64,000 nucleotides of DNA from Gluconobacter sphaericus NBRC 12467 (GTDB taxonomy: Bacteria > Pseudomonadota > Alphaproteobacteria > Acetobacterales > Acetobacteraceae). This document shows, one piece after another, positions 5,378 through 21,675 of the stretch. The notes beneath the pieces were generated by a model, which saw only the letters and a list, made by a program, of their open reading frames with translations, made no database searches and was not told where the DNA came from. Position numbers and translations under genes: made by a program. The stretch covers positions 1-64,000 of the forward strand of contig NZ_BJMK01000007.1 of assembly GCF_006539125.1 (NCBI RefSeq). The letters are read 5' to 3'. Numbering within the stretch: position 1 is the stretch's first letter; every line of letters starts with the position of its first letter.

Positions 5378-5412
5378 TCGCGTTCTTCCTTGCGCCATCA
5401 AATCTGTCGTGG

Positions 5413-5425
5413 TGGTATATACAAG
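5413..5425. promoter_or_regulatory. Probable HutC operator between hutI and hutF
   Basis: TGGTATATACAAG, a near-palindrome matching two other sites in this locus and close to the CTTGTATATACAAG-type operator known for HutC proteins. It lies 36 bp upstream of hutI and 80 bp upstream of hutF, so one site can control both divergent units. Confidence 0.7.
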
Positions 5426-5505
5426 TCTTACAATTCCATTATCATCATGCAACCAACGGGAAAAGCAAAGACTTTCCGCGTGATGAGGGAGGGAATGTCG
5501 AGGTT

Positions 5506-6867
5506 ATGGAACTGTTTGCAGAGCAGGCCCTGCTGCCGGACGGTTGGCACCGGAATGTACGGATTAACGTTTCTTCTGACGGGTGTTTCGAATCGATTAT
5601 CCCGGACGCCCGGATGTCTGCAAGTTCCGAGCGGAAAGCGATTGTTGTTCCGTCGCAGCTGAGTCTGCATTCCCACGCTTTTCAGCGGGGTATGGCGGGA
5701 CTGGCGGAGAGCCGTCAGAATCCGGCGGATACGTTCTGGACCTGGCGGCGGCTGATGTATCAGCTTGCGCATCGCATTTCGCCCGAACAGATGCAGGATA
5801 TTGCAAGTTATCTGTATATGGAAATGCTGACGGCCGGATATACGCAGGTCGCGGAATTCCATTATCTGCATCATGCGCCGGGTGGAGCGACTTACGGGCA
5901 GGTGGCGGAGATGTCCCTGCGTGTCGGCGAGGCGGCGCAGTCGGTCGGCATTGGTCTGACGCTTTTGCCGACGCTGTACGAGCGCGGGGGCTTTGACGGG
6001 CGTCCGCTTCAGGAGGCGCAGGAGCGCTTTGCGACGACGCCGGAACTTATCGGTAGGATCATCAGCGAGACACGGTCGGCCTGGGGGGAAATGCCACTGC
6101 TCTCCGTTGGGCTGGGTCTGCATTCGCTGCGGGCGGTTGATCTGAGAACGACTTCGGATCTTCTGTCTGCGCAGACAGGATCCGTTCATATCCATGTGGC
6201 GGAGCAGCAGAAGGAAGTGGAGGAGTGCGTCGCCTCGGTGGGGGCGAGGCCTGTGGAATATCTGCTGGCTCAGACGGATGTGGATGAGCGCTGGTGCTTG
6301 GTGCATGCGACCCATTTGTCCGCTTCCGAGGTTGCGGCTATGGCACGTTCCGGAGCTGTGGCGGGGCTTTGTCCGATCACGGAAGCCAATCTGGGGGACG
6401 GTCTTTTCCCGCTTGTGCCGTATGTGAATGACGGAGGACGCTTCGGGATTGGAAGCGATAGCAATGTACTGATCAGCCCCTGGGAAGAACTGCGCACTCT
6501 GGAATATGGGCAGAGGCTTTTCACGCAGACGCGATGTGCGGCTCTGCCGGTGGCAACGCTGGGGTCCACGGGCGGATGGCTCTATCGGCAGGTTCTGGAT
6601 GGCGGACGGCAGGCCTGTGGGCTTGAGTCGTGGGGGCTGCTTGCCGGGGCTCGGGCAGATCTGTGCGTGTTGGACGAGGATCTGTTGCCACTTCCGTATC
6701 TGCAGGACGATGCCGTTCTTGATGCGGCTATTTTCGGATCACGCCAGCCTCCCGTGAAGGATGTGCTGTGTGGTGGTCAGTGGCGCGTGCGCGATGGAAG
6801 GCACGTCAATCATGATGCCGTGACGGCTGCGTTCCGGCGCACCGTGCGCACTCTTCTTGATCTTTGA
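5506..6867 (+). CDS. hutF: Formimidoylglutamate deiminase HutF
   Basis: 453 aa. Amidohydrolase-superfamily enzyme converting N-formimino-L-glutamate to N-formyl-L-glutamate and ammonia, which defines the five-step pathway. The metal site HSHAFQRGMAG is near residues 52-62, HVAEQQKEVEEC near 228, HATHL near 267 and GSDSNVLISPWEELRTLEYGQRL near 317, all characteristic of HutF rather than HutI. First gene of a plus-strand unit; hutG starts 21 bp after its stop. It shares its upstream region and HutC-type operator with divergent hutI. Confidence 0.93.
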   Translation: MELFAEQALLPDGWHRNVRINVSSDGCFESIIPDARMSASSERKAIVVPSQLSLHSHAFQRGMAGLAESRQNPADTFWTWRRLMYQLAHRISPEQMQDIASYLYMEMLTAGYTQVAEFHYLHHAPGGATYGQVAEMSLRVGEAAQSVGIGLTLLPTLYERGGFDGRPLQEAQERFATTPELIGRIISETRSAWGEMPLLSVGLGLHSLRAVDLRTTSDLLSAQTGSVHIHVAEQQKEVEECVASVGARPVEYLLAQTDVDERWCLVHATHLSASEVAAMARSGAVAGLCPITEANLGDGLFPLVPYVNDGGRFGIGSDSNVLISPWEELRTLEYGQRLFTQTRCAALPVATLGSTGGWLYRQVLDGGRQACGLESWGLLAGARADLCVLDEDLLPLPYLQDDAVLDAAIFGSRQPPVKDVLCGGQWRVRDGRHVNHDAVTAAFRRTVRTLLDL

Positions 6868-6888: not shown

Positions 6889-7704
6889 ATGACGGATGTT
6901 TTTTCCTTTGTTCGCGGGACCATGCCCGTGCTTGTGACCCTTCCTCATTCCGGCTGCCATCTGGCGCCCGGTATGGAAAAGCGGATGACGGAGCGGGGGC
7001 GTCAGTTACCTGATACCGACTGGTATATGGAACATCTTTATGCCGGAGCACTGTCGAAAGGCATGGGGGTGCTGAAGGCGCAGCATTCCCGCTACGTGGT
7101 GGATCTGAACCGTGGTGCTGATGATGCGGCGCTTTATCCGGGGCGGCCTAGTACGGGGCTTGTGCCGGCGCTGACGTTTGACGGGCAGCCCATTTACCGT
7201 GAGGGGCAGGCGCCGGACGAAAGCGAGATCGCCGAGCGGCGGGAGGCTTATTGGCGTCCCTACCATGAGGCTGTTGCGGAAGAGTTGGAGCGGCTTCGTC
7301 AGAAATGGGGATGGGCGGTTCTGTGGGACGGGCATTCCATCAAGTCGACCATTCCCCGCCTGTTCGAGGGGGCACTTCCGGACCTGAATCTGGGGACTAA
7401 TAGCGGACAGTCCTGTGACGGGGAATTGCAGGCTCTTTTGGCGCAGAGGTTGGCTGGGAACGTGGCCTATAGTCATGTCGTCAATGGTCGTTTCAAGGGC
7501 GGATACACGACGCGGCATTACGGCCAGCCTGAGCGTGGCATTCATGCCATCCAGCTTGAAATCGCGCAGTCCACCTATTTGCGAAGCGAAGAGGCGCCCT
7601 GGCCGATCGATCTGGAAAAGGCGGTGCGTCTGTCGCGGATGATCGATGGTTTGTTGGAGACTGCGCTGTGTTGGCGGCCAGAAGCAACGTGTTCGGGAAA
7701 ATAA
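6889..7704 (+). CDS. hutG: N-formylglutamate deformylase HutG
   Basis: 271 aa. Hydrolyses N-formyl-L-glutamate to glutamate and formate, the last step of the HutF branch. LVTLPHSGCHLAPGM at residues 12-26, VVDLNRGADD near 70, WDGHSIKSTIPRLFEG near 145, and GRFKGGYTTRHYG near 200 are typical of the FGase (not arginase-type) family. An AAGGAA site precedes the ATG at about 8 nt. Immediately downstream of hutF, so co-transcribed; hutU follows after an 86-bp gap with its own promoter and operator. Confidence 0.93.
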   Translation: MTDVFSFVRGTMPVLVTLPHSGCHLAPGMEKRMTERGRQLPDTDWYMEHLYAGALSKGMGVLKAQHSRYVVDLNRGADDAALYPGRPSTGLVPALTFDGQPIYREGQAPDESEIAERREAYWRPYHEAVAEELERLRQKWGWAVLWDGHSIKSTIPRLFEGALPDLNLGTNSGQSCDGELQALLAQRLAGNVAYSHVVNGRFKGGYTTRHYGQPERGIHAIQLEIAQSTYLRSEEAPWPIDLEKAVRLSRMIDGLLETALCWRPEATCSGK

Positions 7705-7758: not shown

Positions 7759-7771
7759 TAGTATATACAAG
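7758..7771. promoter_or_regulatory. Probable HutC operator upstream of hutU
   Basis: TTAGTATATACAAG, 20 bp before the hutU start, sharing GTATATACAAG with the site between hutI and hutF. Confidence 0.7.
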
Positions 7772-7790
7772 TTCATACAGGATGAAGCCC

Positions 7791-9476
7791 ATGAGTGATC
7801 CCGGCAACCGCCTTTCGAATGATCGTGTCATCCGTGCCCCGACCGGGCCTGAACTCTCGGCAAAGAGCTGGCAGACGGAAGCGCCGCTCCGGATGCTGAT
7901 GAATAATCTGGATCCCGACGTGGCGGAAAAGCCGTCTGAGCTCGTTGTCTATGGTGGCATCGGTCGCGCGGCGCGGAACTGGGACTGCTATGACAGGATC
8001 GTCGAGGCGCTGCGTGATCTGGAAGACGACCAGACGCTTCTGGTGCAGTCCGGCAAGCCGGTTGGTGTGTTCCGGACGCATGCCGATGCGCCGCGTGTCC
8101 TGATCGCGAACTCCAACCTCGTGCCGCACTGGGCGACCTGGGAGAAGTTCAACGAACTCGATCGGGCAGGGCTCATGATGTACGGGCAGATGACGGCGGG
8201 ATCGTGGATCTATATCGGCTCGCAGGGCATTGTTCAGGGCACGTATGAGACCTTCGTGGAAATGGGGCGCCAGTATTATGGTGGCAACCTGAAAGGGCGC
8301 TGGATTCTGACGGGTGGTCTGGGCGGCATGAGCGGGGCGCAGCCTCTGGCGGCTGTCATGGCCGGTGCGTCCATGCTGGCGGTTGAATGTGAGCCGTCTC
8401 GCATCCGCAAGCGTCTCGAAACGGGGTATCTGGACCGTCAGGTCGATACGCTCGATGAAGCTCTGGAAATCATTCAGGACGCCTGTGCGAAGGGCGAGGC
8501 TGTTTCCGTGGGGCTTCTGGGGAATGCGGCTGAAGTTTTCCCGGAACTGGTGCGGCGCGGTATCCGTCCGGATGGTGTGACGGATCAGACGTCCGCCCAT
8601 GACCCGCTGAATGGCTATCTGCCGGCGGGATGGTCGTTGGAGCAGGCCGAGAAAATGCGGATCACCAATCCGGCGGCGGTTGAGAAGGCGGCCCGGGAGT
8701 CCATGCGTCTTCAGGTCGAGGCCATGGTGGCGTTCCATCGTCAGGGCATTCCGACTTTCGATTACGGTAACAACATCCGCCAGATGGCTTTTGACGAAGG
8801 GCTTGAAGACGCCTTTGCCTTCCCGGGCTTCGTGCCAGCCTATATCCGCCCGCTGTTCTGCCGGGGTATCGGGCCGTTCCGCTGGGCAGCGCTTTCGGGG
8901 GATCCGGAAGACATCTTCAAGACGGACCAGAAGGTCAAGGAACTGCTGCCGGACGACAAGCATCTTCACAACTGGCTCGATATGGCGCGGGAGAAGATCC
9001 ACTTCCAGGGACTGCCTTCGCGTATTTGCTGGGTCGGTCTGGGGGACCGTCACCGTCTGGGACTGGCGTTCAACGAAATGGTGGCCAGCGGCGAGCTCAA
9101 GGGCCCGATTGTGATCGGCCGTGACCATCTGGATAGTGGATCAGTCGCCAGCCCGAACCGTGAGACCGAGAGTATGCGTGACGGTTCTGACGCTGTGTCT
9201 GACTGGCCGCTGTTGAATGCGCTGCTTAATACGGCGTCGGGCGCGACCTGGGTGTCGCTGCATCATGGTGGTGGCGTTGGCATGGGCTTTTCCCAGCATT
9301 CCGGCATGGTGATTGTGGCAGATGGTACGCCGGATGCGGCGCGACGTCTGGAGCGGGTACTGTGGAACGACCCGGCTACGGGTGTTATGCGGCATGCCGA
9401 TGCCGGTTACGACATTGCAACTGACTGTGCCCGCGAGAAGGGCCTCGACCTTCCCATGATTACGCGCGGAGCCTGA
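7791..9476 (+). CDS. hutU: Urocanate hydratase HutU
   Basis: 561 aa from the ATG at 7791. This start is preferred over the in-frame ATG at 7782 because the AGG at 7779-7781 would touch the earlier codon but lies 9 nt from the later one. NAD+-dependent enzyme turning urocanate into imidazolone propionate. The family-typical [22 protein letters not shown] opening, the [16 protein letters not shown] block, GNNIRQMA...[17 protein letters not shown] and [17 protein letters not shown] near the end are all present, so it is full length. hutH follows after 7 bp. Confidence 0.97.
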
Positions 9477-9483
9477 GACCATC

Positions 9484-11031
9484 ATGACAATCAGTATTTT
9501 TACCCTCACGCCCGGCAAGATCACGCTCAGCGACCTGCGGGACTTCTATTTCGGCCAGCAGGATGTCCGCTTGGACGACGGGACCTTTGAGGTCCTGCAG
9601 CGTGCGGCGGAATCCGTGGAGCGCATCGTTGGACGTGGCGAGCCTGTCTATGGTGTGAACACGGGTTTCGGAAAACTCGCGAAGACCCGGATTCCCGATG
9701 ACCGTCTGCGCGATCTTCAGCGCAATCTGGTGCTGAGTCATGCGGCGGGAATTGGTCAGCCGATGCCGGAGCGTGTGGTGCGCTTGATCCTTCTGCTTAA
9801 GGCCAATGGTCTGGCGCGCGGCTATTCGGGTGTGCGTCCGCAGATTGTGCAGCTTCTGCTGGACATGCTGAACCGGGGTGTTGTGCCCGTTATTCCAGAG
9901 AAGGGATCGGTTGGGGCTTCGGGCGATCTGGCTCCGCTGGCGCATATGTCGGCCGTGGTGATCGGCGAGGGCGAGGCATTCTATCAGGGTAAGCGCCTCA
10001 AAGGCGATGAAGCTCTGAAAGCCGCCGGGCTTGAGCCTCTGGTTCTGGGTGCAAAGGAGGGTCTGGCCCTTCTGAACGGTACGCAGGCTTCCACGGCGCT
10101 GGCGATTGCGGCCCTTCTGGATGCCGAACGGCTGTTTCATGCCGCCCTCATTACGGGTGGCCTGACGCTTGATGCTGCGCGCGGCACTGATGCGCCGTTC
10201 GATCCGCGTTTGCATGAATTGCGGGGTCAGAAAGGGCAGATCGAATGCGCTGCGGTCTATCGCACGCTGATGCAGGGGTCGGCCATCCGGGCATCGCATC
10301 TTGAAGATGACGAGCGGGTTCAGGATCCGTACTGCCTACGCTGCCAGCCGCAGGTCATGGGCGCCTGTCTGGATAATCTGCGTCAGGCGGCGCGGGTTCT
10401 GGTGATCGAGGCGAATGCGGTTTCGGACAATCCGATCCATTTCCCGGACACGGATGAGATGATCTCGGGTGGTAACTTCCATGCCGAGCCGGTGGCGATT
10501 GCCGCGGATCTCATGGCGATTGCCGTGTCCGAAGTCGGGGCGATTGCAGAGCGGCGTCTGGCGCTGCTGGTCGATGCGCAGATGAGCGGCCTTCCGCCGT
10601 TCCTGGTGCAGGATAGCGGGCTGAACTCCGGCTTCATGATCGCGCAGGTCACGGCTGCGGCTCTGGCATCCGAGAACAAGACACTGGCCCATCCGGCAAG
10701 TGTGGACAGTCTGCCGACTTCGGCCAATCAGGAAGACCACGTCTCCATGGCGACGTTTGCCGCGCGTCGCGTGGGCGATATCGTGGACAATGTCCGGACG
10801 ATCATTGCAGTTGAATATCTGGCGGCCGTGCAGGGACTTGATTTCCTCGCACCGCTGGAAACATCCGCGCCGTTGCTTGAAGTCGCGAAGACGTTGCGGA
10901 AAACTGTGCCCTTCTTTGCTCAGGACCGGCTGTTTACGCCGGACATGGAAGCTGCCCGCGCGCTCATTATCGATGGCGCTTTGGGAGACTGTGTCGGGTC
11001 GGGTGTTGCCTTGCCTGTTCTTGAGGGCTGA
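9484..11031 (+). CDS. hutH: Histidine ammonia-lyase HutH
   Basis: 515 aa. Deaminates L-histidine to urocanate, the committed step of the pathway. The Ala-Ser-Gly triad that cyclises into the MIO cofactor is residues 145-147 in [23 protein letters not shown] (about 55-65), [32 protein letters not shown] and [14 protein letters not shown] are conserved family blocks. It follows hutU by 7 bp and precedes the FMN hydroxyacid dehydrogenase by 23 bp, so hutU-hutH-dehydrogenase are probably one transcript under the operator at 7758-7771. Confidence 0.97.
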
Positions 11032-11054: not shown

Positions 11055-12200
11055 ATGAATTATCACGGCATCGCGGCTCTGCATCGTCGGGCTGATAGGG
11101 TTCTTCCCCGTATTTTTCGGGACTATGTAAACGGTGGTTCGCATTCCGAGCGCACCGTTAGGGCCAATCGCCGGGCTTTTGACCGTTGGGCGGTTGTTCC
11201 GAAATGTCTGGTGGATGTTGCGGAGTGCGATCTGTCCGGGGCGTTTCTGGAAGCCACGCATCGGCTCCCGTTCATGTTTGCACCGCTGGGTTTTGGCGGT
11301 CTGATGTGTCCAAACGGTGAAATCCGGGCTGCGCGGGTTGCGGCTTCGGTGGGTCTGCCGATGGCGGTGTCCACTTTCGCCATTCAATCGTTGGAAACGC
11401 TCTCCCGGGTGCCGGGCGTGACGCTCGCGGCACAGATCTATGTCTTCAGGGACCGAGGCATCACCCGCGACATGCTGCGCCGGGCGGAGAGTTGCGGCAT
11501 CCGAAGCATCATCCTGACGGTTGATACGCCGATTACGCCGCTTCGTCTGCGGGATGTGCGTAACGGTTTTCGCAATCTGACGCGCCCCTCTCTGCGGCAT
11601 GTGCTGTCCATGGCCGCACATCCGCGCTGGACGGCGGGGATGCTGCGGAACGGGATGCCGAAAATCGGTAATCTGGCGCCCTACGGCATGGGCAGTAACC
11701 TGATGGAGCAGGCAAGAAATGCTGCGTCTCAGATTGATCCTACCCTGACCTGGAAAGATCTGGACTGGCTGCGCTCTGTCTGGCCGGGGCAGCTTGCCGT
11801 TAAGGGAATTATGGATGCTGGGGACGCGCTGGCTTGCCAGAAGGCGGGGGCGCAGACCGTGATTGTTTCCAATCATGGAGGACGGCAGATGGACCCGGCC
11901 CCGTCGTCGCTTTCCGTCCTGCCGGAGATTGTCGAAGCCCTGAAGGGGGAGACGGACGTCATTCTTGACGGCGGTGTCCGTTGGGGTGGCGACGTTGTCA
12001 GCGCGCTGGCGCTGGGTGCGAAGGCCGTGGGGATCGGGCGTCCCTGGGCCTGGGCGCTTGCTGCAGATGGCGAGAGAGGCGTTCGCAGTCTGGTGGACGG
12101 GCTGGGCGGTGAAATCCGCGATGTCCTGCGTCTGGGCGGAATGGTGGATCTTGCGTCGCTTCGGGCACAAGGACCTGCAGCGCTCCGGCCGGTCAGTTGA
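11055..12200 (+). CDS. FMN-dependent L-2-hydroxyacid dehydrogenase (LldD-like)
   Basis: 381 aa, the length of L-lactate dehydrogenase/2-hydroxyacid oxidases. The TIM-barrel FMN enzyme motif VIVSNHGGRQMDPAPSSL (active-site His and substrate-binding Arg) is at about residues 274-291, followed by the flavin phosphate-binding LDGGVRWGGDVVSALALGA and GIGRPWAWALA. It oxidises an L-2-hydroxyacid to the 2-oxoacid, passing electrons to oxygen or quinone. Its place directly behind hutH and in front of hutD suggests the substrate is L-imidazole-lactate rather than lactate; that is inference. Its 3' end overlaps the convergent hutD by 8 bp. Confidence 0.88.
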   Translation: MNYHGIAALHRRADRVLPRIFRDYVNGGSHSERTVRANRRAFDRWAVVPKCLVDVAECDLSGAFLEATHRLPFMFAPLGFGGLMCPNGEIRAARVAASVGLPMAVSTFAIQSLETLSRVPGVTLAAQIYVFRDRGITRDMLRRAESCGIRSIILTVDTPITPLRLRDVRNGFRNLTRPSLRHVLSMAAHPRWTAGMLRNGMPKIGNLAPYGMGSNLMEQARNAASQIDPTLTWKDLDWLRSVWPGQLAVKGIMDAGDALACQKAGAQTVIVSNHGGRQMDPAPSSLSVLPEIVEALKGETDVILDGGVRWGGDVVSALALGAKAVGIGRPWAWALAADGERGVRSLVDGLGGEIRDVLRLGGMVDLASLRAQGPAALRPVS

Positions 12201-12726
12201 TGGCGTAGGCGATCTGGCCCGCTTTCAGGACGGTGAGTTTAAAGGGAGTTTCGCTCAGGAGAATGTCTCCTGGTGCGAGCGTGTAATGTTGCTCTCCTGC
12301 CATGACCTCCCAGTGACCTTCTGCGACGACAAAACCCAGAAGGCCATCTGAAGGAAGATCTTCCGACGTGACGGCAGTCAGGTCCGGGCCTGTCCTGTTC
12401 GCGGGGCGCATCAGGTTCAGGACTTCGATCGGACCGTTCAGAGGTGCGCCTGTTAGGGGTAGTTCGCCGCTGAACCGGATCACGCTGCCGGGTTGATCCA
12501 GCAGAAGGGGTGGAGCGCCCGAAACGGGATGAAGTCGGACGCCGTTTCCTGTCAGAAGCCCCATCTGTCTGAACAGACCCGTAAAACTGGAGAATGGTGC
12601 GGACCGGGTGATGCTGGCGGCACTGAGGCGCCATTCCGGCTGTTCGATCAGCAGGCGGGTGGTGCCGGCTCCATTTTTCCATGGGCTTGCCGGCACGGTG
12701 TGCAGATGGATGTGCCGCATGCTCAT
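12193..12726 (-). CDS. hutD: HutD family protein
   Basis: 177 aa. HutD proteins are cupin-like, found in many hut loci, and are thought to limit hut expression or flux; the mechanism is not settled. The opening WKNGAGTTRLLIEQPEWRLSAASI and the FSSFTGLFRQMGLLTGNGVRL block are the recognised family signatures. A C-terminal cupin-like strand set ends GQIAYAIN. The ATG at 12726 overlaps the stop of the FAD dehydrogenase (ATGA), so it is translated with that gene. It is the last gene of the minus-strand aminotransferase-dehydrogenase-hutD unit. Confidence 0.85.
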   Translation of the reverse strand: MSMRHIHLHTVPASPWKNGAGTTRLLIEQPEWRLSAASITRSAPFSSFTGLFRQMGLLTGNGVRLHPVSGAPPLLLDQPGSVIRFSGELPLTGAPLNGPIEVLNLMRPANRTGPDLTAVTSEDLPSDGLLGFVVAEGHWEVMAGEQHYTLAPGDILLSETPFKLTVLKAGQIAYAIN

Positions 12727-14129
12727 GGCACGTCCGCGGGAACGAGTTTTCCGGGGTTGAGGATGTTCTTTGGGTCCAGTGCGGTTTTGATGGCGCGCAT
12801 GACGGAGAGGGCAGCAGGCTCGTGCTCTTCGGTCATGAAGATCTGTTTTGCGAGCCCGATCCCGTGTTCGCCGCTCGCGGAACCGCCGAGCGATAGCGCG
12901 CGGCGGATGATTTTATGGTCCAGTTCAAGAGCGCGCTTTTCGGCATCCGCGTCATTGGGTGGGATTAGGATGACGGTGTGGAAATTGCCGTCGCCGACAT
13001 GGCCGACAATGGGGGCCAGAAGGCCGGAGGCGTCGATATCAGCTCTGGCGCCGGTCATGAGTTCCGTCAGTGCGGCGATAGGGACGATGGCGTCTGTGGT
13101 GATACCCTTGAAGCCGGGGCGATAAGCCATGCAGGCCCAGAAGGCGTCATGGCGTGCTTTCCAGAGTGTGTTGCGCTCTTCGGTGGCGGTGGCCCAACGG
13201 AAGGACTGGCCGCCCTGGCCTTCCACGAGATCGCGCAGCACTGTTTCCTGCTCCGCGACACTGGCGGGTGAGCCTGTTAGCTCGAAGAACATGGTGGGGA
13301 GGGCTTCGTAGCCCGTAAGATGGGAATATTGGATGCAGGCATCCATTTGGACGTCGTCGAGCAGTTCCATCCGGCCGACTGTCAGGCCGCATTGGATCAC
13401 GAGTACGGCTGTCTCCACGGCGTTGGCCAGTGTCGGGAATTGGCAGACCGCAGCTCCCACGGCTTCGGGGATGGGATGGAGCTGGGCCTGGACTTCCGTG
13501 ATGACGGCCAATGTGCCTTCGGAGCCGATGAGCAGCCCTGTCAGATCGTAGCCTGTGGCTGCCTTGCGGACGGCACCGCCCGTATGGAGGATTCGTCCGT
13601 CGGCCAGCACTGCTGTTAGGCCCAGCACGTTGGCGCGCATGGTGCCGTAACGCATGGCTCCGGTGCCGGAGGCCCGGGTGGCGCACATTCCGCCAAATGT
13701 TGCTTCGCCGCCGGGATCGACCGGAAAGAACAGGCCCTGTGTTCGCAGATGGAGGTTCAGGTCCTGCCGCGTGACACCGGCCTGCACGCGGCAGGTCAGG
13801 TTTTCGGGCGAGACGTCGAGAATATCCGTCATCATGGACAGATCGAGGCTGACGCAGTCCGGAACAGGCGTCAGTTGTCCTTCAAGGGAGGTGCCGCCGC
13901 CGAAGGGAATCACGGGAACGTTTTCTTCGTGGCAGATCCGCAGGACGTTGGATACGTCCTGCGTTGTGCGGGCGAACAGGACATAGGCCGGCAGCAGGGT
14001 CTGATTCGGATGGCGCCATCCTTCACCGTGGGCATGATGATCGCGGACCGTCTCGTTGGCGGTCAGGCGATCTCCGAAAAGAGGAGCGAGACGCCGGGCG
14101 GCGCGTTCGGCGGCAGAGGGGCCGGTCAT
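12723..14129 (-). CDS. FAD-linked D-2-hydroxyacid (D-lactate type) dehydrogenase
   Basis: 468 aa from the ATG at 14129, supported by AAGGAA 6 nt upstream; the longer in-frame start would overlap the aminotransferase gene. A PCMH-type FAD-binding domain (VPVIPFGGGTSLEGQLTP near residue 70, VDPGGEATFGGMCATRASGT near 135, GLLIGSEGTLAVITEV near 195) is followed by the FAD-oxidase C-terminal domain (IVGHVGDGNFHTVILIP, SGEHGIGLAKQ, LDPKNILNPGKL). This is the GlcD/LDHD family that oxidises D-2-hydroxyacids. Lying between a HisC-like aminotransferase and hutD, it probably acts on D-imidazole-lactate (inference). Confidence 0.88.
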   Translation of the reverse strand: MTGPSAAERAARRLAPLFGDRLTANETVRDHHAHGEGWRHPNQTLLPAYVLFARTTQDVSNVLRICHEENVPVIPFGGGTSLEGQLTPVPDCVSLDLSMMTDILDVSPENLTCRVQAGVTRQDLNLHLRTQGLFFPVDPGGEATFGGMCATRASGTGAMRYGTMRANVLGLTAVLADGRILHTGGAVRKAATGYDLTGLLIGSEGTLAVITEVQAQLHPIPEAVGAAVCQFPTLANAVETAVLVIQCGLTVGRMELLDDVQMDACIQYSHLTGYEALPTMFFELTGSPASVAEQETVLRDLVEGQGGQSFRWATATEERNTLWKARHDAFWACMAYRPGFKGITTDAIVPIAALTELMTGARADIDASGLLAPIVGHVGDGNFHTVILIPPNDADAEKRALELDHKIIRRALSLGGSASGEHGIGLAKQIFMTEEHEPAALSVMRAIKTALDPKNILNPGKLVPADVP

Positions 14130-14142
14130 GACGCGTTCCTTC

Positions 14143-15297
14143 TCAGGCTGCGGAGGAGTGTAAGGGCTGACGGACGCGATCGAGGGCGGCAAGGAAGGTC
14201 TGGCTGTCTTCGGGGCGCGCAATGCTGACACGGATCCAGGTCTCGTAACCCTTTTCCTTCCAGGGTTTGACGATGACGCCCTGCTCGAGCAGGCGCTCGG
14301 CGAGAGTTGACGCGGATTCGTGGGCGTTGAAGAACAGGAAATTGGCGAAGGACTGTGCGACGAAATAATCGCGCTCTTCCAGAGCCGCTTTTAGCGCTTT
14401 GCCTTCGGTCAGGGTGGCGTCCACCGTTTTGTGCATGTGTTCCTGATCGAGCAGGCTCAGTCGGGCCATTTCCAGCGCCGCACTGTTGCTGTTGAAGGGA
14501 TCGCGGACGCGGGTCATGACGGCGGTGAGGCCGGGATCAGATGTCAGGGCATAACCGACGCGCAGTCCGGCCAGACCATAGGCTTTTGAGAAGGTTCTCA
14601 GGACCATCCAAGGGCGGGACTGGTTTTGGAGAATGGCGAGACTGTCGGCATAGTCTGGACTGGAACACGCATATTCCCAGTAGGCTTCGTCGATGACGAT
14701 CAGCGTGTCTGCGGGGCAGGCGTCGATGAGTTTCTGCATGGCGTCGCCTGTCATTAGGCAGCCGACCGGATTAGATGGGTTGGAGAACATCAGGATCTTG
14801 AGGGGGCCGGATGCTACAGCCTGATGCAGCTGTGGCAAGTCGAAGCGGGCATCTGTCGTCATGGGGATGGCCTCTGCCTGGGCCCCCATCATCTGAGGCC
14901 AGATCAGATGCAGCCCGAAAGACGGCAGGACCGTGACGAGGCGGTCTCCGGGGGACAGAAAGGCCTCGCAGATCATACGGATGATCTGTTCGGAGCCGTT
15001 TCCGATAACAATCCGGTCCGTGTCGATTCCGGTCTGACGTGACAGCTCTTCCCGAAGCCCCTCTGCGGAAGCATCCGGATAGCGGAACAGGCTGGAGGCT
15101 ATTTCTGTCCAGTGCTTTAGAGCCGCGGGCGATGGCCCATAAGGGTTTTCATTGCTTCCCAGCTTGGTGATCTGGGGAATTCCGTATTTTGCCCGCACGG
15201 CGTCTTCTGACAAGCCCGCATTATAGACCGGCAGTTGACGGACTTCAGCCCGGGCCAGGGAGAGGGGGGAGGTTCGACATTCAGGGGCGGTGTTCAT
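14143..15297 (-). CDS. HisC-type PLP aminotransferase, putative histidine/imidazole-pyruvate transaminase
   Basis: 384 aa from the ATG at 15297 (GGAG 7-8 nt upstream). Class I/II aminotransferase of the histidinol-phosphate aminotransferase group: [17 protein letters not shown] near residue 43, [20 protein letters not shown] near 95, SNPSNPVG near 175, VIDEAYWEY near 205, and the PLP-lysine motif [18 protein letters not shown] near 237. It is first in a minus-strand unit with the D-hydroxyacid dehydrogenase and hutD, not in a his biosynthetic cluster. A HutC-type operator lies 56 bp upstream. The likely reaction is interconversion of imidazole-pyruvate and histidine; aromatic amino acid transamination is the alternative. 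Confidence 0.85.
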
Positions 15298-15725
15298 GCG
15301 ATGGCTCCACGGGAAGAATGGGATGGGGCTGTGTGGGGAGGGAGTTATTCGGCTTGTAAATACAACCATAGATTCTTTGGGATATCCAGAGGTCGGAGGG
15401 GCTTCAGATGTGTTTTTCAAACCTTCTCATGCGCTTTTTGCAGGGGAATTTTTCTTTTCGGAAAAGGGTAGAATCGGAAAGAATAGAATATTGATAAAAG
15501 GATATATTTTGAGGAATTTCGGGCGAAAAATGATGCCGGTATAGTCTTTGCTAGGGGTGAGAAATTTCCAAAAAACCAGTTCGATATCAGAATAGATATA
15601 GACAACCTTTTTCCGTAATGACATGGTCTCTTGCGAAAAGGCTGCATGCCTTTCGGTTTCCTCTGTAGCCTGTCAGTGACTGATGGTGTCTCCTTCAAAC
15701 GACTGCTTTGGGAAAGTACGGGAAT
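15298..15725. other. Divergent intergenic region between aminotransferase and TonB receptor
   Basis: 428 bp without a credible gene; AT-richer than its surroundings, especially 15420-15620. It holds the HutC-like site at 15353-15366 and must contain the promoters of both divergent units. A frame on the minus strand (15427-15624, rich in Phe/Ile/Lys) has no conserved features and is rejected. Confidence 0.6.
15353..15366. promoter_or_regulatory. Probable HutC operator upstream of the aminotransferase operon
   Basis: CTTGTAAATACAAC; its reverse complement, GTTGTATTTACAAG, has the same frame as the sites at 5413 and 7758 with one central change. It lies 56 bp upstream of the aminotransferase start. 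Confidence 0.6.
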
Positions 15726-18242
15726 ATGATGTCCAAGAATAACATTCCATTACCGGATCAGGATGCCTGTTGTTTTCCCGTTTCAGGAAGCAGAATTCAG
15801 TCGGATCTGAAACGAAAGGGTGCATCTTCGTTTCTGGTCTGGGTTCTCGCATCGACGGCATTTTCTTGCTGTGCGGCCCAGGCCGCAGATCCCAGGAAGC
15901 AGGCCCGTCCCGTCGTCCATCACAATCCTAGCAAGGTAGCTCCTGTTCACTCGAAGGCCGTGCGGGCCCGTCGTGCTACAGCGCGTGAGGCGCTGGAAAG
16001 CGAGAGCATGCAGGTGACAGCCCGCCACGTTCCTCACGGTGCCGTTACGACTGTATCTTCCGAAGCGCTGGCGGACGCGGTGCCAGGCACTAATCCGCTC
16101 AAGGTTCTGGCGCGTCAGCCGGGCATCATGTTCCAGTCAGATGATCCGCAGGGGATGGATACCTGGTCTACCCAGTTTTACATGCACGGATTCCTGCAGA
16201 ACCAGATCGGCATGACGCTGGATGGTATTCCGCTGGGTGATCAGGAATTTCATACCTTCAACGGTCTGAACTCCGTTAACGCAATTTCTGCCGAGAATGT
16301 CGGCCGGATGGATGTCTCCATGGGAGCAGGGGCTGAATCTGTTGCCAGTACCAGCAATCTGGGTGGTGCTGTCGAGTATGTCTCTTCCGACCCCAAACAC
16401 AAGGCGGGTGGTCTGGCGTCACAGACCTTTGGCTCAAACAGTGGATTTCATACGTTTTTGCGGATGGATAGTGGCGATCTGAATAAGAGCGGCACCCGAT
16501 TTTACGTCTCCTACATGCGCAATTCGCAGAATAAGTGGAAAGGGGGCGGGGACCAGTTCGGTCAGCAGGTCAACGCCAAGTTTGTGCAGCCGATTGGTGA
16601 GCACAGCAGTATTTCTTCTTTCTTTGATTACAACCTGACGCAAAGCTATCTGTATCAGGATATGTCTTTCGACATGCTCAAGAATGGTGGATACCGGCTC
16701 GACAACTTTTACGGTACGCCCAACGCCTACAAAAAAGCCTATCTGTCCGCACTTTCAGCAAATGGTCTTCCGGGTGGTGCGTTGCCGGCGGGTTATTCCA
16801 AGATGTCCGATCCGTGGGATGCATCCTATTACGATGGTGCATTGGTTGAGCGTGATTATCTGGGTGGTCTGAAAGCAAATCTGGCTTTGACGGATCGTTT
16901 GCGTTGGGAAAGTGTTGTGTACGGTCATGGGCAGTATCTGCGCGGAACCTGGGCCAATCCGTATGTTTCTTCTCCCAATGGTGCGCCGCTGATCGACCAG
17001 GCGACCGTGACGCATTCCCAGCGCTTCGGTTTTACGTCCGCGCTTCATTATCAGATCGCGCATAACGATATCAGCGGTGGCGTCTGGTATGAGAATTTCC
17101 ATACCGATGTAGGGCGTTTCGCTTATCAGGAACCCTTGCTTTCGGATGTGGAATCCGGGAAGGCCAAGCCTGTCAATTCGGTTGGGGAACTTCCTGACCC
17201 TTATGCCACGCTGTGGGGGCAGAACCTTAATTCCAACAGCTTTACGGCTTTCGTGCAGGACACGTATCATGTTCTGCCCAACCTTTCCCTGCATTTCGGC
17301 TTTAAGTCGCTTCTGCAGACGGTGCGGGGTGGGCAGTATGCCAATGATGAGAGCTATACGGGCGTTGGTCAGATCGCAGGTGGCAGCATTACGACGGCCA
17401 GGGCGTTCCTGCCGCATTTCAGCGGAGACTGGCATTTCCTGAAACATCACGAGCTGTATTTCGACATCGCGGAGAACGTGAAGTCCTATCCTGTACAGGC
17501 CTTCAAGGAAGGGGCATCGCCTTTTTCCGTTTCACAGTCCGCGTATAATCAGCTGTTGCAAAATGGTGGTCTGAAGCCTGAGACGGACTGGAATTTTGCG
17601 GTCGGTTATCGTTTTACGCACAAATATGCTCTGGCGTCCGTGCATGCGTATAGAACGAATTTCCACAACCGTCTGCAGCAGGTGACGTCGGGGTCGATCG
17701 TCAATCCGATTTCTACGGTTGCGAATGTGGGTGGCGTGACCATGAACGGTGTGGATGCCGGTCTGACGCTGATGCCCGTCAAGGGGCTCTCGCTGTATAA
17801 CAGCATCAGCTACAATCACGCGACTTATGACAACAACGTTACGGAAGCCGGAACGACCTATCACACCAAGGGGCAGCAGATCGTTGCTTATCCGCGCTTT
17901 ATGTACAAGGCGAGTCTGGCCTATGAGTGGCAGAATTTCTCCGCGCATCTCGATACCCAGTTCCTTGGCACACGCAATTACAGCTATACAGGGGACATGA
18001 AAATTCCTTCTTACTGGATCGAGACGCTGGGTGCGCGGTATCGCTTTGGTAGCCTTGGGAAATATTCCAGAAGCCTGGGTTTTGTGCAGAACCTGACTTT
18101 TGAGTTCAATGTCTATAACCTGACGAACACGAAATATATTTCTACGATGGGTGAAAATGGTGTGCCGATGTCGGGTGACTACCAGTCCTTCCTCGTGGGT
18201 GCGCCGCGTCAGTACTATGGTACGCTCAAGGCGGAATTCTGA
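15726..18242 (+). CDS. TonB-dependent outer-membrane receptor
   Basis: 838 aa from the ATG at 15726. A long N-terminal signal sequence carries a hydrophobic core (FLVWVLASTAFSCCAAQAA, residues about 35-55). A plug domain follows (GTNPLKVLARQPGIMFQSDD, TLDGIPLGDQEFHTFNG, GAGAESVASTSNLGGAVEYVSS, residues about 115-225), then a beta-barrel ending in a C-terminal aromatic (TLKAEF), as expected for outer-membrane barrels. It takes up an unknown ligand with TonB/ExbBD energy. The NCS1 permease starts within its stop codon, so the two are coupled. The position beside hut genes suggests a histidine-related ligand. An in-frame TTG at 15708 is a less likely start. Confidence 0.88.
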   Translation: MMSKNNIPLPDQDACCFPVSGSRIQSDLKRKGASSFLVWVLASTAFSCCAAQAADPRKQARPVVHHNPSKVAPVHSKAVRARRATAREALESESMQVTARHVPHGAVTTVSSEALADAVPGTNPLKVLARQPGIMFQSDDPQGMDTWSTQFYMHGFLQNQIGMTLDGIPLGDQEFHTFNGLNSVNAISAENVGRMDVSMGAGAESVASTSNLGGAVEYVSSDPKHKAGGLASQTFGSNSGFHTFLRMDSGDLNKSGTRFYVSYMRNSQNKWKGGGDQFGQQVNAKFVQPIGEHSSISSFFDYNLTQSYLYQDMSFDMLKNGGYRLDNFYGTPNAYKKAYLSALSANGLPGGALPAGYSKMSDPWDASYYDGALVERDYLGGLKANLALTDRLRWESVVYGHGQYLRGTWANPYVSSPNGAPLIDQATVTHSQRFGFTSALHYQIAHNDISGGVWYENFHTDVGRFAYQEPLLSDVESGKAKPVNSVGELPDPYATLWGQNLNSNSFTAFVQDTYHVLPNLSLHFGFKSLLQTVRGGQYANDESYTGVGQIAGGSITTARAFLPHFSGDWHFLKHHELYFDIAENVKSYPVQAFKEGASPFSVSQSAYNQLLQNGGLKPETDWNFAVGYRFTHKYALASVHAYRTNFHNRLQQVTSGSIVNPISTVANVGGVTMNGVDAGLTLMPVKGLSLYNSISYNHATYDNNVTEAGTTYHTKGQQIVAYPRFMYKASLAYEWQNFSAHLDTQFLGTRNYSYTGDMKIPSYWIETLGARYRFGSLGKYSRSLGFVQNLTFEFNVYNLTNTKYISTMGENGVPMSGDYQSFLVGAPRQYYGTLKAEF

Positions 18243-19645
18243 TGACGAAACAGGTGCGCAGGGCTGAATTCCATCAGTCCGTCGAGGTTCATACGATCTA
18301 TCGGATCCCGACGGAACACCGGCATGGACGTGTCCGCGACCTGTTTACGGTCTGGTTCAGTACGAACATGACGCTCCTGACGATTGTAACCGGGGCGCTC
18401 GGACCGAAGATTTTCGATCTGTCCCTGATTTGGGCGATTGTCGCCGTGATTGCAGGCAATCTGGTGGGCGCGGTTTTCATGGCGCTCCATGCCGCGCAGG
18501 GTCCGGTTCTGGGTGTGCCGCAGATGGTGCAGAGTCGCGGTCAGTTCGGAGTCTGGGGTGCGGTTCCGATCATTGTACTGGTCGTGTTGATGTATATCGG
18601 GTTTGCGGCTTCGAACTGTGTTGTGGGCGGTGAGGCGCTGGACGATGCTCTGCCTGTGTTGGGGCGGGTTCCGGCGGTTCTGCTGCTGGCCTTCATCAGT
18701 CTCGTTCCCTGTATTTTGGGATATGGGGCGATCCATGCGTGTTCAAAGGCTGTGACATGGCTGTCCGGAATTGCGGTCATGTACTGTCTGGTGGTCGGGT
18801 TCTGGCACATGCCGATCACGCTTCTTATGGAGCTTCATGGTTCGGTCGCCGGTTTCTGTGGTATGTTTTCGATCGCGGCACTTTGGCAGATTGCCTATGC
18901 GCCGTATGTTTCCGACTCATCTCGCTATCTGCCCGAGGACAGTCTGTCCGTCCGGAATACGTTCTGGGCGAGTTATGGGGGGACTGTGCTTGGCACGATC
19001 CTCCCGATGATCCTGGGCGCCTTTCTGGTCCTGCAATGGCCTGGCGAGAGCGTGGTACAGTCGCTGGGGCATCTGGCGGGAGTGTGGGGCGCGCCGGTGC
19101 TGGTGGTTCTGTCTCTGTCCATTGCTCTGGCTAATGCCATGAGTGTTTATTGCGGGGCGCTGTCGAGTATCACGATCATCCAGACCTTTCTGCCTGAATG
19201 GCGGGCAGCTTTGAGAAGCCGCGTTGTTCTGACATGTGCGCTGCTGGGGCTATCGCTGTTCTTCGCGTTGGGAATGGCGGATACCTTCATGAAATCCTAT
19301 GCGGCTTTTCTGGATATCCTGATGGCTGTCATGGTGCCGTGGACTGCAATCAATCTGTATGATTATTATGTTCTGCGTCATGGAGACTATGATGTTGATT
19401 CATTCTTCCGAAAAGATGGCGGTATATACGGGTATGTAAACTGGGCCGCTGTGGGAAGTTATGTTCTGGGTGTCCTTGTCGAAATTCCTTTTTTGAAAAA
19501 TGAATTCTTTACGGGATTTTTTGTTCCATATCTTCAAAAAGTGGACGTTTCCTGGCTGGTCAGTCTGGTTGTAACCAGTCTGTTTTATGCGGCCGTATCC
19601 CGAAGGAGCCGTGTCGACGATGTCTCGCGTCCTTCTTCCTGCTGA
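18242..19645 (+). CDS. NCS1-family cytosine/purine-type permease (CodB-like)
   Basis: 467 aa inner-membrane transporter with about 12 hydrophobic segments (for example LSLIWAIVAVIAGNLVGAVF and AVPIIVLVVLMYIGFAASN). The GPVLGVPQMVQSRGQFG segment near residue 85 is typical of the NCS1 nucleobase:cation symporter family. The start overlaps the TonB receptor stop by one base and the stop lies inside the next gene, showing tight coupling. CodB-like permeases occur in Pseudomonas hut loci, so import of histidine, urocanate or an imidazole compound is plausible; nucleobase import is the alternative. Confidence 0.88.
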   Translation: MTKQVRRAEFHQSVEVHTIYRIPTEHRHGRVRDLFTVWFSTNMTLLTIVTGALGPKIFDLSLIWAIVAVIAGNLVGAVFMALHAAQGPVLGVPQMVQSRGQFGVWGAVPIIVLVVLMYIGFAASNCVVGGEALDDALPVLGRVPAVLLLAFISLVPCILGYGAIHACSKAVTWLSGIAVMYCLVVGFWHMPITLLMELHGSVAGFCGMFSIAALWQIAYAPYVSDSSRYLPEDSLSVRNTFWASYGGTVLGTILPMILGAFLVLQWPGESVVQSLGHLAGVWGAPVLVVLSLSIALANAMSVYCGALSSITIIQTFLPEWRAALRSRVVLTCALLGLSLFFALGMADTFMKSYAAFLDILMAVMVPWTAINLYDYYVLRHGDYDVDSFFRKDGGIYGYVNWAAVGSYVLGVLVEIPFLKNEFFTGFFVPYLQKVDVSWLVSLVVTSLFYAAVSRRSRVDDVSRPSSC

Positions 19646-20232: not shown

Positions 20233-21675
20233 ATGAACGTATTCAAGCGGACGCGGCTTTCTCGGAAGCGGATGGGCAAGGCCCTGCTGAAAAGCGGCTT
20301 TCTGCTGCTGGCTGGCGATCTGATGGTGGCCCAGGCGTTTAGTGCGCCGGCGGATCATCAGGCTGCGGCGGACCAGGCTCTGGATCTGGCTGAAAAAGCC
20401 ATTGCACTGCGCTCGGTCGCGGGGCCGGGAAACCAGACGCCGCAAGTCGCTGCGCTGTTCCGCGATGCGCTGGTCAAGGGCGGTTTTGCTCTGTCCGATA
20501 TTACGATCACGCCCTACAAGGACACGGCCTATCTGATCGCCCGCTGGCCGGGACAGGATCCGTCCCTCAAGCCTCTTGTGATTTCAGGGCACATGGATGT
20601 TGTGGAAGCCAAGGCGTCGGACTGGACGCATGATCCGTTCAAGCCGCAGATCGAGGACGGCTATCTTCTGGGCCGTGGCTCCACGGATATGAAGCTGGAT
20701 GACACGCTGGCGATTGCTGCTCTTCTGGAGCTCAAACGCGAGGGGTACAAGCCGCGGCGCGATATCATCATCGAGTTTTCGGGGGATGAGGAGACCACGA
20801 TGGCGACGGGCGCCATCATCGCGGACAAGCTCTCTCATGCCGAACTGGTGCTGAACATGGACGGCGCGAATGGCACGCTTGATGAGAAGACGGGGAAGCC
20901 GGATTATTTCACCTGGGAAGGTGCGGAAAAGAATTATGCCGATTTCCGCCTGACTGTGATCAATCCGGGGGGGCATTCCTCCGAACCGCGTCCGGTGAAT
21001 GCGATCGATGAGCTTGCGGCTGATCTTCTGCGGATCCAGCAGCACCGTTTCAAACCGGAAGTTAACGAGCTCAGCCGTAGCTATTTCCTGAATGCAGCGC
21101 GCTGGCAGGAGCCGGAGATGGCAGCTGCCATGAAGGCTTTTGCGAAAAACCCTGCGGATAAAAAAGCCATTCGTACACTGTCTTCAGACCCGTCCTATAT
21201 TGGTCGCATCGGAACGACCTGCGTCGTGACCATGATCGAGGGGGGGCATGCGCTGAATGCCTTGCCGCAGAAGGTGACGGCCGATATCAACTGCCGGATT
21301 TTCCCGGGTCATCCGCGGACAGCCATTATGGACGAACTTCGTCAGGCTGCGCAGGATCCGTCCATGAAGATTGAGGATGCGACAGAAGGGTCGGTTCAGA
21401 CTGCCGCGTCTCCGATGCGTCCGGATGTGATCAAGGCGATCGAGCATGGGATGCAGGTTGCCTATCCGGGGGTGGCCGTTTTCCCTGCGCTGTCTTCAGG
21501 TGCCAGTGACAGTATGTGGTTCCGTTCCCATGATGTGCCGAGCTACGGGATCAGTCCGATTTTTATCAAAAATTCGGATTCCTTTATGCACGGTCTGAAC
21601 GAGCGTACTCCTGTGGCCAGTATCGCGCCTGCCATTGAGGATCTGCTAGTGCTGTTTTCGGACTTGTCTCACTGA
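20233..21675 (+). CDS. M20-family metallopeptidase, exported
   Basis: 480 aa with an N-terminal signal (MGKALLKSGFLLLAGDLMVAQAF region, residues about 15-40). Zinc-binding blocks SGHMDVVEA (residues about 117-125), GRGSTDMKLDD (about 152-162), and the catalytic Glu pair in EFSGDEETT (about 180) are present. A dimerisation domain insert (NPGGHSSEPRPVNAI) and a late ligand region (SGASDSMWF) complete the fold, so it is full length. The M20 family contains carboxypeptidases and dipeptidases such as carnosinases. Following the receptor, permease and RidA genes, it may release histidine or imidazole amino acids from peptides in the periplasm (inference). GGGGTAAGG precedes the ATG. Confidence 0.88.
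   Translation: MNVFKRTRLSRKRMGKALLKSGFLLLAGDLMVAQAFSAPADHQAAADQALDLAEKAIALRSVAGPGNQTPQVAALFRDALVKGGFALSDITITPYKDTAYLIARWPGQDPSLKPLVISGHMDVVEAKASDWTHDPFKPQIEDGYLLGRGSTDMKLDDTLAIAALLELKREGYKPRRDIIIEFSGDEETTMATGAIIADKLSHAELVLNMDGANGTLDEKTGKPDYFTWEGAEKNYADFRLTVINPGGHSSEPRPVNAIDELAADLLRIQQHRFKPEVNELSRSYFLNAARWQEPEMAAAMKAFAKNPADKKAIRTLSSDPSYIGRIGTTCVVTMIEGGHALNALPQKVTADINCRIFPGHPRTAIMDELRQAAQDPSMKIEDATEGSVQTAASPMRPDVIKAIEHGMQVAYPGVAVFPALSSGASDSMWFRSHDVPSYGISPIFIKNSDSFMHGLNERTPVASIAPAIEDLLVLFSDLSH

Follow-up and report, generated by a model that had tools for sequence, protein, structure and literature searches.

A 1973 paper by Coote and Hassall (doi 10.1042/bj1320409) reportedly deals, going by its title, with the degradation of L-histidine and imidazolyl-L-lactate by Pseudomonas testosteroni; imidazole-pyruvate and histidine are said to be intermediates of that route, and the related P. 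acidovorans reportedly employs an NAD(P)-linked dehydrogenase (EC 1.1.1.111). The histidine utilization (hut) operons of Pseudomonas are controlled by HutC, which, as described in the available part of PMC12977541, binds TGTA-N2-TACA and is released by urocanate. A plasmid of Paracoccus yeei (pLM20P5) carries hut, histidinol-phosphate aminotransferase, and D-lactate dehydrogenase modules, which are left functionally unconnected in the accessible text of PMC4447125. Here we analyse a 64,000-nucleotide (64 kb) stretch of Gluconobacter sphaericus NBRC 12467 DNA (hereafter the window; part of contig C7 of a 3.06 Mb genome), in which a hut locus is joined by an FMN-dependent and an FAD-dependent 2-hydroxyacid dehydrogenase and by a HisC-like aminotransferase, HisC2.

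Compared with the route of P. testosteroni and P. acidovorans, two flavoenzymes are present here, predicted to serve one enantiomer each, along with assigned genes and apparent hut control. The original prediction made for this stretch had called the combination undescribed, which was too strong, given that degradation of imidazolyl-L-lactate was reportedly published in 1973 and that the P. yeei plasmid modules have been listed. The route itself is old biochemistry; what looks new is this set of genes and their control with hut, and literature searches for imidazole-lactate catabolism genes retrieved no paper naming such genes. Standard HutC-controlled hut operons of Pseudomonas, as far as described in the available part of PMC12977541, share with the window the hut enzymes, HutC, and TGTA-N2-TACA operators, whereas the window has in addition a further operon and a gene linked to hutH, the products of which would act before histidine. 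Plasmid pLM20P5 resembles the window in bringing together hut genes, a HisC2-type aminotransferase, and an FAD D-2-hydroxyacid dehydrogenase, but differs in the addition of a VanAB-type oxygenase and in having no annotated FMN enzyme; in the accessible text of PMC4447125, these are listed as separate modules beside a vanillate module.

We consider it probable that the locus represents a hut regulon extended upstream of histidine, in which imidazole-lactate would be converted to imidazole-pyruvate, then to histidine, and passed on to the hut enzymes. Imidazole-pyruvate would be produced from L-imidazole-lactate by the FMN enzyme and from D-imidazole-lactate by the FAD enzyme, with electrons from both oxidations passing to the respiratory chain; HisC2 would transaminate imidazole-pyruvate with glutamate to L-histidine; and HutH, HutU, HutI, HutF, and HutG would degrade histidine, with regeneration of glutamate and release of ammonia. 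A TonB-dependent receptor and an NCS1 permease may import the imidazole acid, and HutC, judging by its sites, would jointly repress hutF, hutUH-FMN, and hisC2-FAD-hutD. Gene content, gene order, operator sites, conservation, catalytic residues, and recurrence are observed; substrates, direction, electron acceptor, transport, and repression are predictions.

Genes in the window were identified using curated models (NCBIfam/TIGRFAM) and Pfam domains, with scores evaluated against model cut-offs. The FMN gene (11055–12200, plus strand; PF01070, 395 bits), a proposed L-imidazole-lactate dehydrogenase of the FMN-dependent L-2-hydroxyacid dehydrogenase type, ends a tight operon with hutU (urocanate hydratase; 7782–9476, plus strand; TIGR01228, 963.7 bits, over cut-off) and hutH (histidine ammonia-lyase; 9484–11031, plus strand; TIGR01225, 707 bits, over cut-off), from which it is separated by 23 bp. 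Convergent to it lies a second tight operon on the minus strand, composed of hisC2 (14143–15297; NF003496, 622.8 bits against a cut-off of 540), proposed to encode an imidazole-pyruvate:glutamate aminotransferase, an FAD/metal-dependent D-2-hydroxyacid dehydrogenase gene (12723–14129; PF01565 and PF02913; LDHD-like), proposed to act on D-imidazole-lactate, and hutD (12193–12726; PF05962, 117.9 bits), with a 13 bp gap followed by a 4 bp overlap. The placement of an L-2-hydroxyacid dehydrogenase behind hutH, and of a D-2-hydroxyacid dehydrogenase and an aminotransferase with hutD, was as originally predicted; the description of the aminotransferase as HisC-type is to be corrected to NF003496 (PRK05166), and a general hisC over cut-off is encoded at another place in the genome. 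That prediction did not include the operator or the two transporters, nor the oxygenases seen in relatives, which hint at a wider substrate. Use of D-histidine was also considered, and the genes scanned included neither an oxidase nor a dehydrogenase for D-amino acids.

The remaining hut genes complete a regulon in which hutH, hutU, hutI, and a route from formiminoglutamate each score over cut-off: hutI (imidazolonepropionase; 4139–5452, minus strand; TIGR01224, 439.7 bits), hutF (formimidoylglutamate deiminase; 5506–6867, plus strand; NF006684 and TIGR02022), and hutG (N-formylglutamate deformylase; 6889–7704, plus strand; TIGR02017). The GntR/UTRA-type repressor hutC (3300–4040, minus strand; PF00392 and PF07702) stands at the edge of this group, and the regulon, with the added hisC2 operon, has both HutC and operators of the TGTA-N2-TACA type by sequence. 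A search of the whole 64 kb window with the pattern TTGTANNTACAA, allowing at most one mismatch, returned three sites against 0.22 expected, a number reached in 0 of 100 shuffles. A perfect site, TTGTAAATACAA (15354–15365), lies approximately 57 bp upstream of the hisC2 start; TAGTATATACAA (7759–7770, one mismatch) precedes hutU; and TGGTATATACAA (5413–5424, one mismatch) is found approximately 88 bp before hutF and falls inside the longest hutI frame, at its 5' end. From these positions we infer common HutC repression of hutF, hutUH-FMN, and hisC2-FAD-hutD.

HisC2 belongs to a clade defined by a K-[PA]-W motif, the members of which mostly carry YNAGL; HisC enzymes carry Arg and mostly PGK. 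In the window protein, K344-P-W346 stands in place of the HisC Arg, and K344 aligned with Arg in 5/5 displayed chains of solved HisC/ArAT structures, such that the pair of substrate-phosphate-binding Arg residues of biosynthetic HisC is not complete. In Mycobacterium tuberculosis HspAT, the substrate phosphate is held by Arg337, Arg346, and Asn176, while ArAT binds carboxylates by Arg322 and Arg330, as given in the accessible text of PMC4703992; we infer that the K344 position is the equivalent of Arg337. While HisC2 passes the NF003496 cut-off, it falls narrowly below the general hisC model TIGR01141 (267.7 of 276.55 bits), which some K-x-W relatives pass, and a separate hisC over cut-off is encoded at C1:181072. 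NF003496 is rare, scoring over cut-off in 1/240 genomes of the class and 6/299 of the phylum (the genome studied here being counted in both). HisC and HisC2 have a common family and pyridoxal phosphate site, and HisC2 differs in its Lys for the substrate-anchoring Arg, in having mostly YNAGL in place of the usual PGK, and in hut linkage. Because a Lys replaces the presumed phosphate-holding Arg and a separate hisC is present, HisC2 is probably a transaminase for the unphosphorylated analogue, imidazole-pyruvate, rather than for imidazole-acetol phosphate. A biosynthetic role was rejected on account of the other hisC, the Lys for Arg, and the hut neighbours.

Transamination is reversible, and HisC2 might conversely deaminate histidine when the hut pathway is limited, with the dehydrogenases recycling leaked imidazole-lactate, a scheme we regard as very unlikely. 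Flavin 2-hydroxyacid dehydrogenases oxidise their substrates, neither operon contains a reductase gene, and nitrogen is already removed by HutH. In its favour, imidazole-lactate accumulation is reported in cervical cell models with Lactobacillus crispatus at q 0.1–0.3 (PMC8669023, as far as accessible).

To place HisC2 in a broader context, HisC-like loci were ranked by similarity to HisC2, not by their neighbours, and the best 80 of 589 confirmed stretches were read, with flanks ending at contig ends; by motif these comprised 18 K-x-W loci, 60 loci with the HisC Arg (Arg loci), and 2 unclassed. The HutH query and the initial queries for FAD and FMN enzymes derived from the window. Queries for HisD2, oxygenases, ABC, and unk405, like the second ones for FAD and FMN enzymes, derived from loci of the K-x-W or FMN-linked kind, which in part predetermines their absence from Arg loci. 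Within 10 kb, HutH was found in 9/18 K-x-W loci and 0/60 Arg loci (p = 2.7e-7), and an FAD or FMN dehydrogenase in 10/18 and 0/60, respectively (p = 3.5e-8). A phylum search returned 10 HisC2 loci besides that of the window, all K-x-W, eight of which have an FAD enzyme and six a hut enzyme. In Acidovorax soli, the FAD-HisC2 pair is inserted between hutI and hutF (hutC-H-U-D-I-[FAD-HisC2]-F-G), while Pseudomonas moorei has the order hutH-FMN-FAD-ABC-HisC2-hutC-like; further examples are a Rhodoferax metagenome-assembled genome and Komagataeibacter xylinus, the latter with FMN, FAD, HisC2, and hut genes.

Operator sites accompany HisC2 in part of these loci. A HutC-type site precedes hisC2 in 8/8 genus loci (window included) and also in relatives L043–L046, L090, L095, Pseudogemmobacter L103, and G184 L079, where a similar variant accompanies hutH. 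Overall, a site within 300 bp upstream of HisC2 was found in 15/39 K-x-W loci and in 1/61 others (60 Arg and 1 unclassed; 0.42 and 0.66 expected, Fisher p = 1.2e-6), with the caveat that 7 of the 15 site-bearing K-x-W loci are from the genus of the window and are not independent, and that L043 and L090 are near-copies.

The order hutC-I-F-G-U-H-FMN | hutD-FAD-hisC2 | TonB-NCS1 is conserved in 8/8 genomes of the genus with the close FMN type. An FMN match at E <= 1e-80 was present in 17/26 sampled genomes of the genus, and the close type in eight (own included), the other seven at 89–96 percent identity. In one of them (G129; L038/L054), the FMN gene matches as two overlapping pieces, which looks like a split between frames; its hutH, FAD, and hisC2 genes each match as one. 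Among 120 genomes of the family (Acetobacteraceae), hutH was detected in 60 (E <= 1e-60), the hut-type FMN enzyme in five (E <= 1e-100), and HisC2 in six (E <= 1e-75), and all five with the FMN enzyme are among the six with HisC2. In 4/4 other family genomes with the FMN gene, representing four genera (FMN ortholog 48–53 percent identical), hutU-hutH-FMN and FAD-hisC2 occur together in the same relative order as in the window: hutU-hutH-FMN is followed by a 2-oxoglutarate (2OG) oxygenase, FAD, and HisC2, and then by PhyH, ABC, and NCS1 genes. The positions of hutG-hutF and hutI-hutC differ from the window, hutD was not detected in one of the four loci (L043), and the locus of one of the family genomes (G060) is nearly the same as the K. 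xylinus record L090.

Transport genes accompany hisC2 as well. Divergent from hisC2 lie the TonB-dependent receptor (15708–18242, plus strand; PF00593 and PF07715), proposed for outer-membrane uptake, and the NCS1-family permease (18242–19645, plus strand; PF02133), proposed for inner-membrane uptake of the imidazole acid. The receptor stands beside hisC2 in 7/7 other genus loci, and the permease adjoins HisC2 also in N. hansenii L089 and in G073. After the permease, and next to it across the genus, an M20 metallopeptidase is encoded (20233–21675; NF006596 over cut-off); its N-terminus looks exported by eye, and it might free histidine or imidazole acids from dipeptides.

The closest solved relative of the FAD enzyme is mouse LDHD (PDB 8jdc). 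Consistent with an LDHD-type enzyme, it has the FAD domains and a metal/substrate site, with R326, H377, H384, E421, and H422 present in 52/52 aligned rows, and it scores below the cut-off for GlcD, a glycolate oxidase subunit (TIGR00387, 321.7 of 567.9 bits). Mouse LDHD is described as a metal-dependent general dehydrogenase of D-2-hydroxyacids with hydrophobic side chains, inactive on L-forms and on hydrophilic side chains, and the word imidazole is absent from the main text of that paper (PMC10589216, as far as available). Given that imidazole is partly polar, this argues somewhat against direct transfer of the mouse substrate range to the window enzyme. Family, metal, and catalytic residues are alike in the two proteins, while the mouse side-chain pocket V101, W351, S365, and I407 corresponds to L, F, T, and V in the window protein. 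In a tree of 52 FAD enzymes, the 14 HisC2-linked rows of the family fall in a 19-row group with five unlinked rows. By contrast, of the 13 HisC2-linked enzymes that do not belong to the family, 11 group in a single clade (100/100) well apart from the LDHD-like type of the window, with Ala, Gly, Ser, or Asp at the Trp351 position where the window has Phe; the remaining two (L079 and L102) are placed among LDHD-like rows. It therefore seems that unlike dehydrogenases took up the same role in different lineages, an argument for a shared reaction.

FMN-dependent 2-hydroxyacid dehydrogenases form an L-specific family, in which Tyr, Arg, Lys, and a His-Arg pair have catalytic roles. The window enzyme scores over the PF01070 cut-off, with Y24, Y129, R164, K250, H274, and R277 invariant in 9 rows, and lies below both L-lactate dehydrogenase LldD cut-offs (NF008398, 296.6 of 376 bits; NF033901, 259.4 of 550 bits). 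It is placed in an 18-row clade of family members (100/100), to which HisC2/HisD-linked enzymes of Rhizobiales and Rhodobacterales are close (22 rows, 96/90); the P. moorei enzyme falls outside, on a long branch of unsure placement. Confinement of the FMN clade to hut loci was rejected, as its closest relatives are also found beside an NCS1 permease, an amidohydrolase, and a HisD paralog.

A second cluster type was observed among these loci, composed of a short-chain dehydrogenase (SDR), a histidinol dehydrogenase paralog, and a zinc alcohol dehydrogenase (L052:14440-18932, L081, L083, L094, L098, L100, L103, L108, L209, L210, and L217). A 400–450 aa protein is a usual member, without a Pfam match in L052 and L108 and, in L052, also without one in NCBIfam. 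A HutC-like regulator or the FMN dehydrogenase is often present, and HisC2 occurs in all listed loci except L052. Such clusters possibly serve histidinol or imidazole-propanediol catabolism.

Several observations weigh against an imidazole-lactate branch of the hut pathway. No hut enzyme was found within 10 kb in 9/18 K-x-W scan loci, a HutC-type site close to hisC2 is missing from 24/39 K-x-W loci, and the FMN gene lies near HisC2 in only 5/18 K-x-W scan loci and 0/10 phylum loci, its nearest paralogs being in loci with a HisD paralog, where HisC2 was not found. In the family, the sixth HisC2 genome (G073) has TonB-NCS1-HisC2 and no hutH match, and in six other hut loci (L063, L064, L065, L070, L071, and L078; only 7.5 kb for L070) none of the three genes occurs within the stretch read, which indicates that the branch is an optional addition. 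The association of HutH with HisC2 across the 120 family genomes is not significant (Fisher p = 0.21), even though the two are linked in 5/6 HisC2 genomes. The side-chain pocket of the FAD enzyme likewise does not tell hut-linked from unlinked family relatives: since linked rows and most unlinked rows (20/25) alike carry Phe or Tyr at the Trp351 position, the pocket provides no evidence of specificity within the family. Finally, the L-lactate dehydrogenase cut-off is not reached by any gene of the genome; against that model, the window FMN enzyme scores about the same as paralog C3 (296 and 303.5 bits).

This last point favours an account in which HisC2 would be an aromatic aminotransferase and the FAD and FMN enzymes ordinary dehydrogenases of D- and L-lactate, all situated near hut without a joint pathway. 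The enzyme families are lactate-dehydrogenase-like, and acetic acid bacteria meet much lactate. We nevertheless judge this account improbable in view of the HutC-type site before hisC2, the tight operons, the repeated co-location with hut and HisC2 (0/60 at ordinary hisC loci), and the presence of further FMN paralogs (C3 and C14) and an FAD paralog (C6) which could serve lactate; plain lactate use as the principal function was rejected on these grounds. An imidazole-lactate pathway, as put forward in the original prediction, is the best available reading, being backed by synteny, a shared HutC-type operator, recruitment of dehydrogenases from different clades beside HisC2 and hut, and conserved catalytic residues, and is as yet unproven. 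The co-occurrence with hutH that had been proposed as a check is borne out for all three genes in 7/7 other genus and 4/4 other family genomes bearing the FMN gene and, for HisC2, in half of the K-x-W scan loci against none of the Arg loci; for HisC2 it does not extend to the other half or to the family as a whole.

A further account concerns the breadth of the substrate. Oxygenases of the 2OG-Fe(II), PhyH, or VanA-type Rieske families, often with a reductase, recur near HisC2 (6/18 K-x-W scan loci, 5/10 phylum loci, and 0/60 Arg loci, with queries from K-x-W loci). In Rhodoferax L101, two HutC-type sites, TTGTATAGACAA, lie just before VanA-HisC2-FAD and are identical to the hutC/hutU intergenic site there. 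HisC2-like genes (E <= 1e-60) were found in 149 of 72,556 plasmid records, and in 15 regions picked from these by hand, an FAD enzyme was present in 11, VanA in 10, a HisD paralog with HisC2 in three, and hutH in two. In Leisingera, HisC2 is followed by S-(hydroxymethyl)glutathione dehydrogenase, and a Roseateles cluster encodes both this enzyme and S-(hydroxymethyl)glutathione synthase. These observations hint that the natural feed includes methylated imidazole-lactates. The core described here could accordingly be one module of a broader pathway for a modified substrate, such as N-methylated imidazole-lactate, from which an oxygenase would strip the methyl group as formaldehyde before the FAD or FMN enzyme and HisC2 yield histidine, with the lineage of the window having kept the core only. 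We hold this to be possible yet doubtful: such oxygenases were not found in the window locus or in 7/7 other genus loci (the rest of the genome not being searched), none was found in L080, L082, L084, L091, and L093, formaldehyde-detoxifying genes occur in only 2/15 plasmid regions, and we know of no substrate for any such HisC2-linked oxygenase.

Other companions of HisC2 were observed on plasmids and elsewhere. HisC2-oxygenase clusters are accompanied by DUF2817 proteins (L215, L216, and L218) or aspartoacylase-like proteins (L079, L211, L214, L219, and L220), a hint that the substrate may also exist in amide linkage. One Escherichia coli plasmid carries HisC2 in overlap with a gene for an FMN alpha-hydroxyacid oxidase, which is 35 percent identical to the window FMN enzyme; together with a glycerol-dehydrogenase-like iron alcohol dehydrogenase these form a compact group (L207:8941-12380) beside a Tn3-like mercury transposon. 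Plasmid records with HisC2-like genes include 31 from Klebsiella, 18 from Escherichia, and 13 from Enterobacter, from which one region (L207) was read.

A different hut locus was found in other members of the genus (L066, L072, and L076), in which an aromatic lyase 35–37 percent identical to HutH takes the place of hutH beside hutC, hutD, hutI, hutF, hutG, and a 92 percent identical hutU, with HutC-type sites before the lyase and between hutD and hutC. In G143, hutI, hutF, and hutG of this second locus (L066:9480-11902) match in several pieces, compared with one piece each in L072 and L076; G143 also carries an ordinary hut locus (L065).

Taken tentatively, HisC2 may be a marker of mobile, modular clusters by which modified remnants of histidine are channelled into histidine: D- and L-imidazole-lactates via FAD and FMN dehydrogenases; N-methylated imidazole-lactates, derived from methylhistidines, via VanAB-type Rieske or 2-oxoglutarate-dependent demethylases, some with formaldehyde disposal; and reduced forms via a HisD paralog. 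The window would then be a hut-embedded, two-enantiomer core without demethylases. Lactic and acetic acid bacteria share habitats. Imidazole-lactate accumulates with L. crispatus (PMC8669023), and the available text of PMC12583827 describes D-imidazole-lactate as an antimicrobial metabolite of microbial origin. The locus suggests that lactic and acetic acid bacteria may cross-feed, and it offers testable genes for an old orphan pathway. It would also account for the recurrence of "histidinol-phosphate transaminase" and "lactate dehydrogenases" in hut loci. Comparable groups of enzymes turn up again in unrelated bacteria as well as on plasmids. The locus further suggests that annotations as HisC, D-lactate dehydrogenase, and vanillate demethylase are misleading for a whole clade, in part plasmid-borne.

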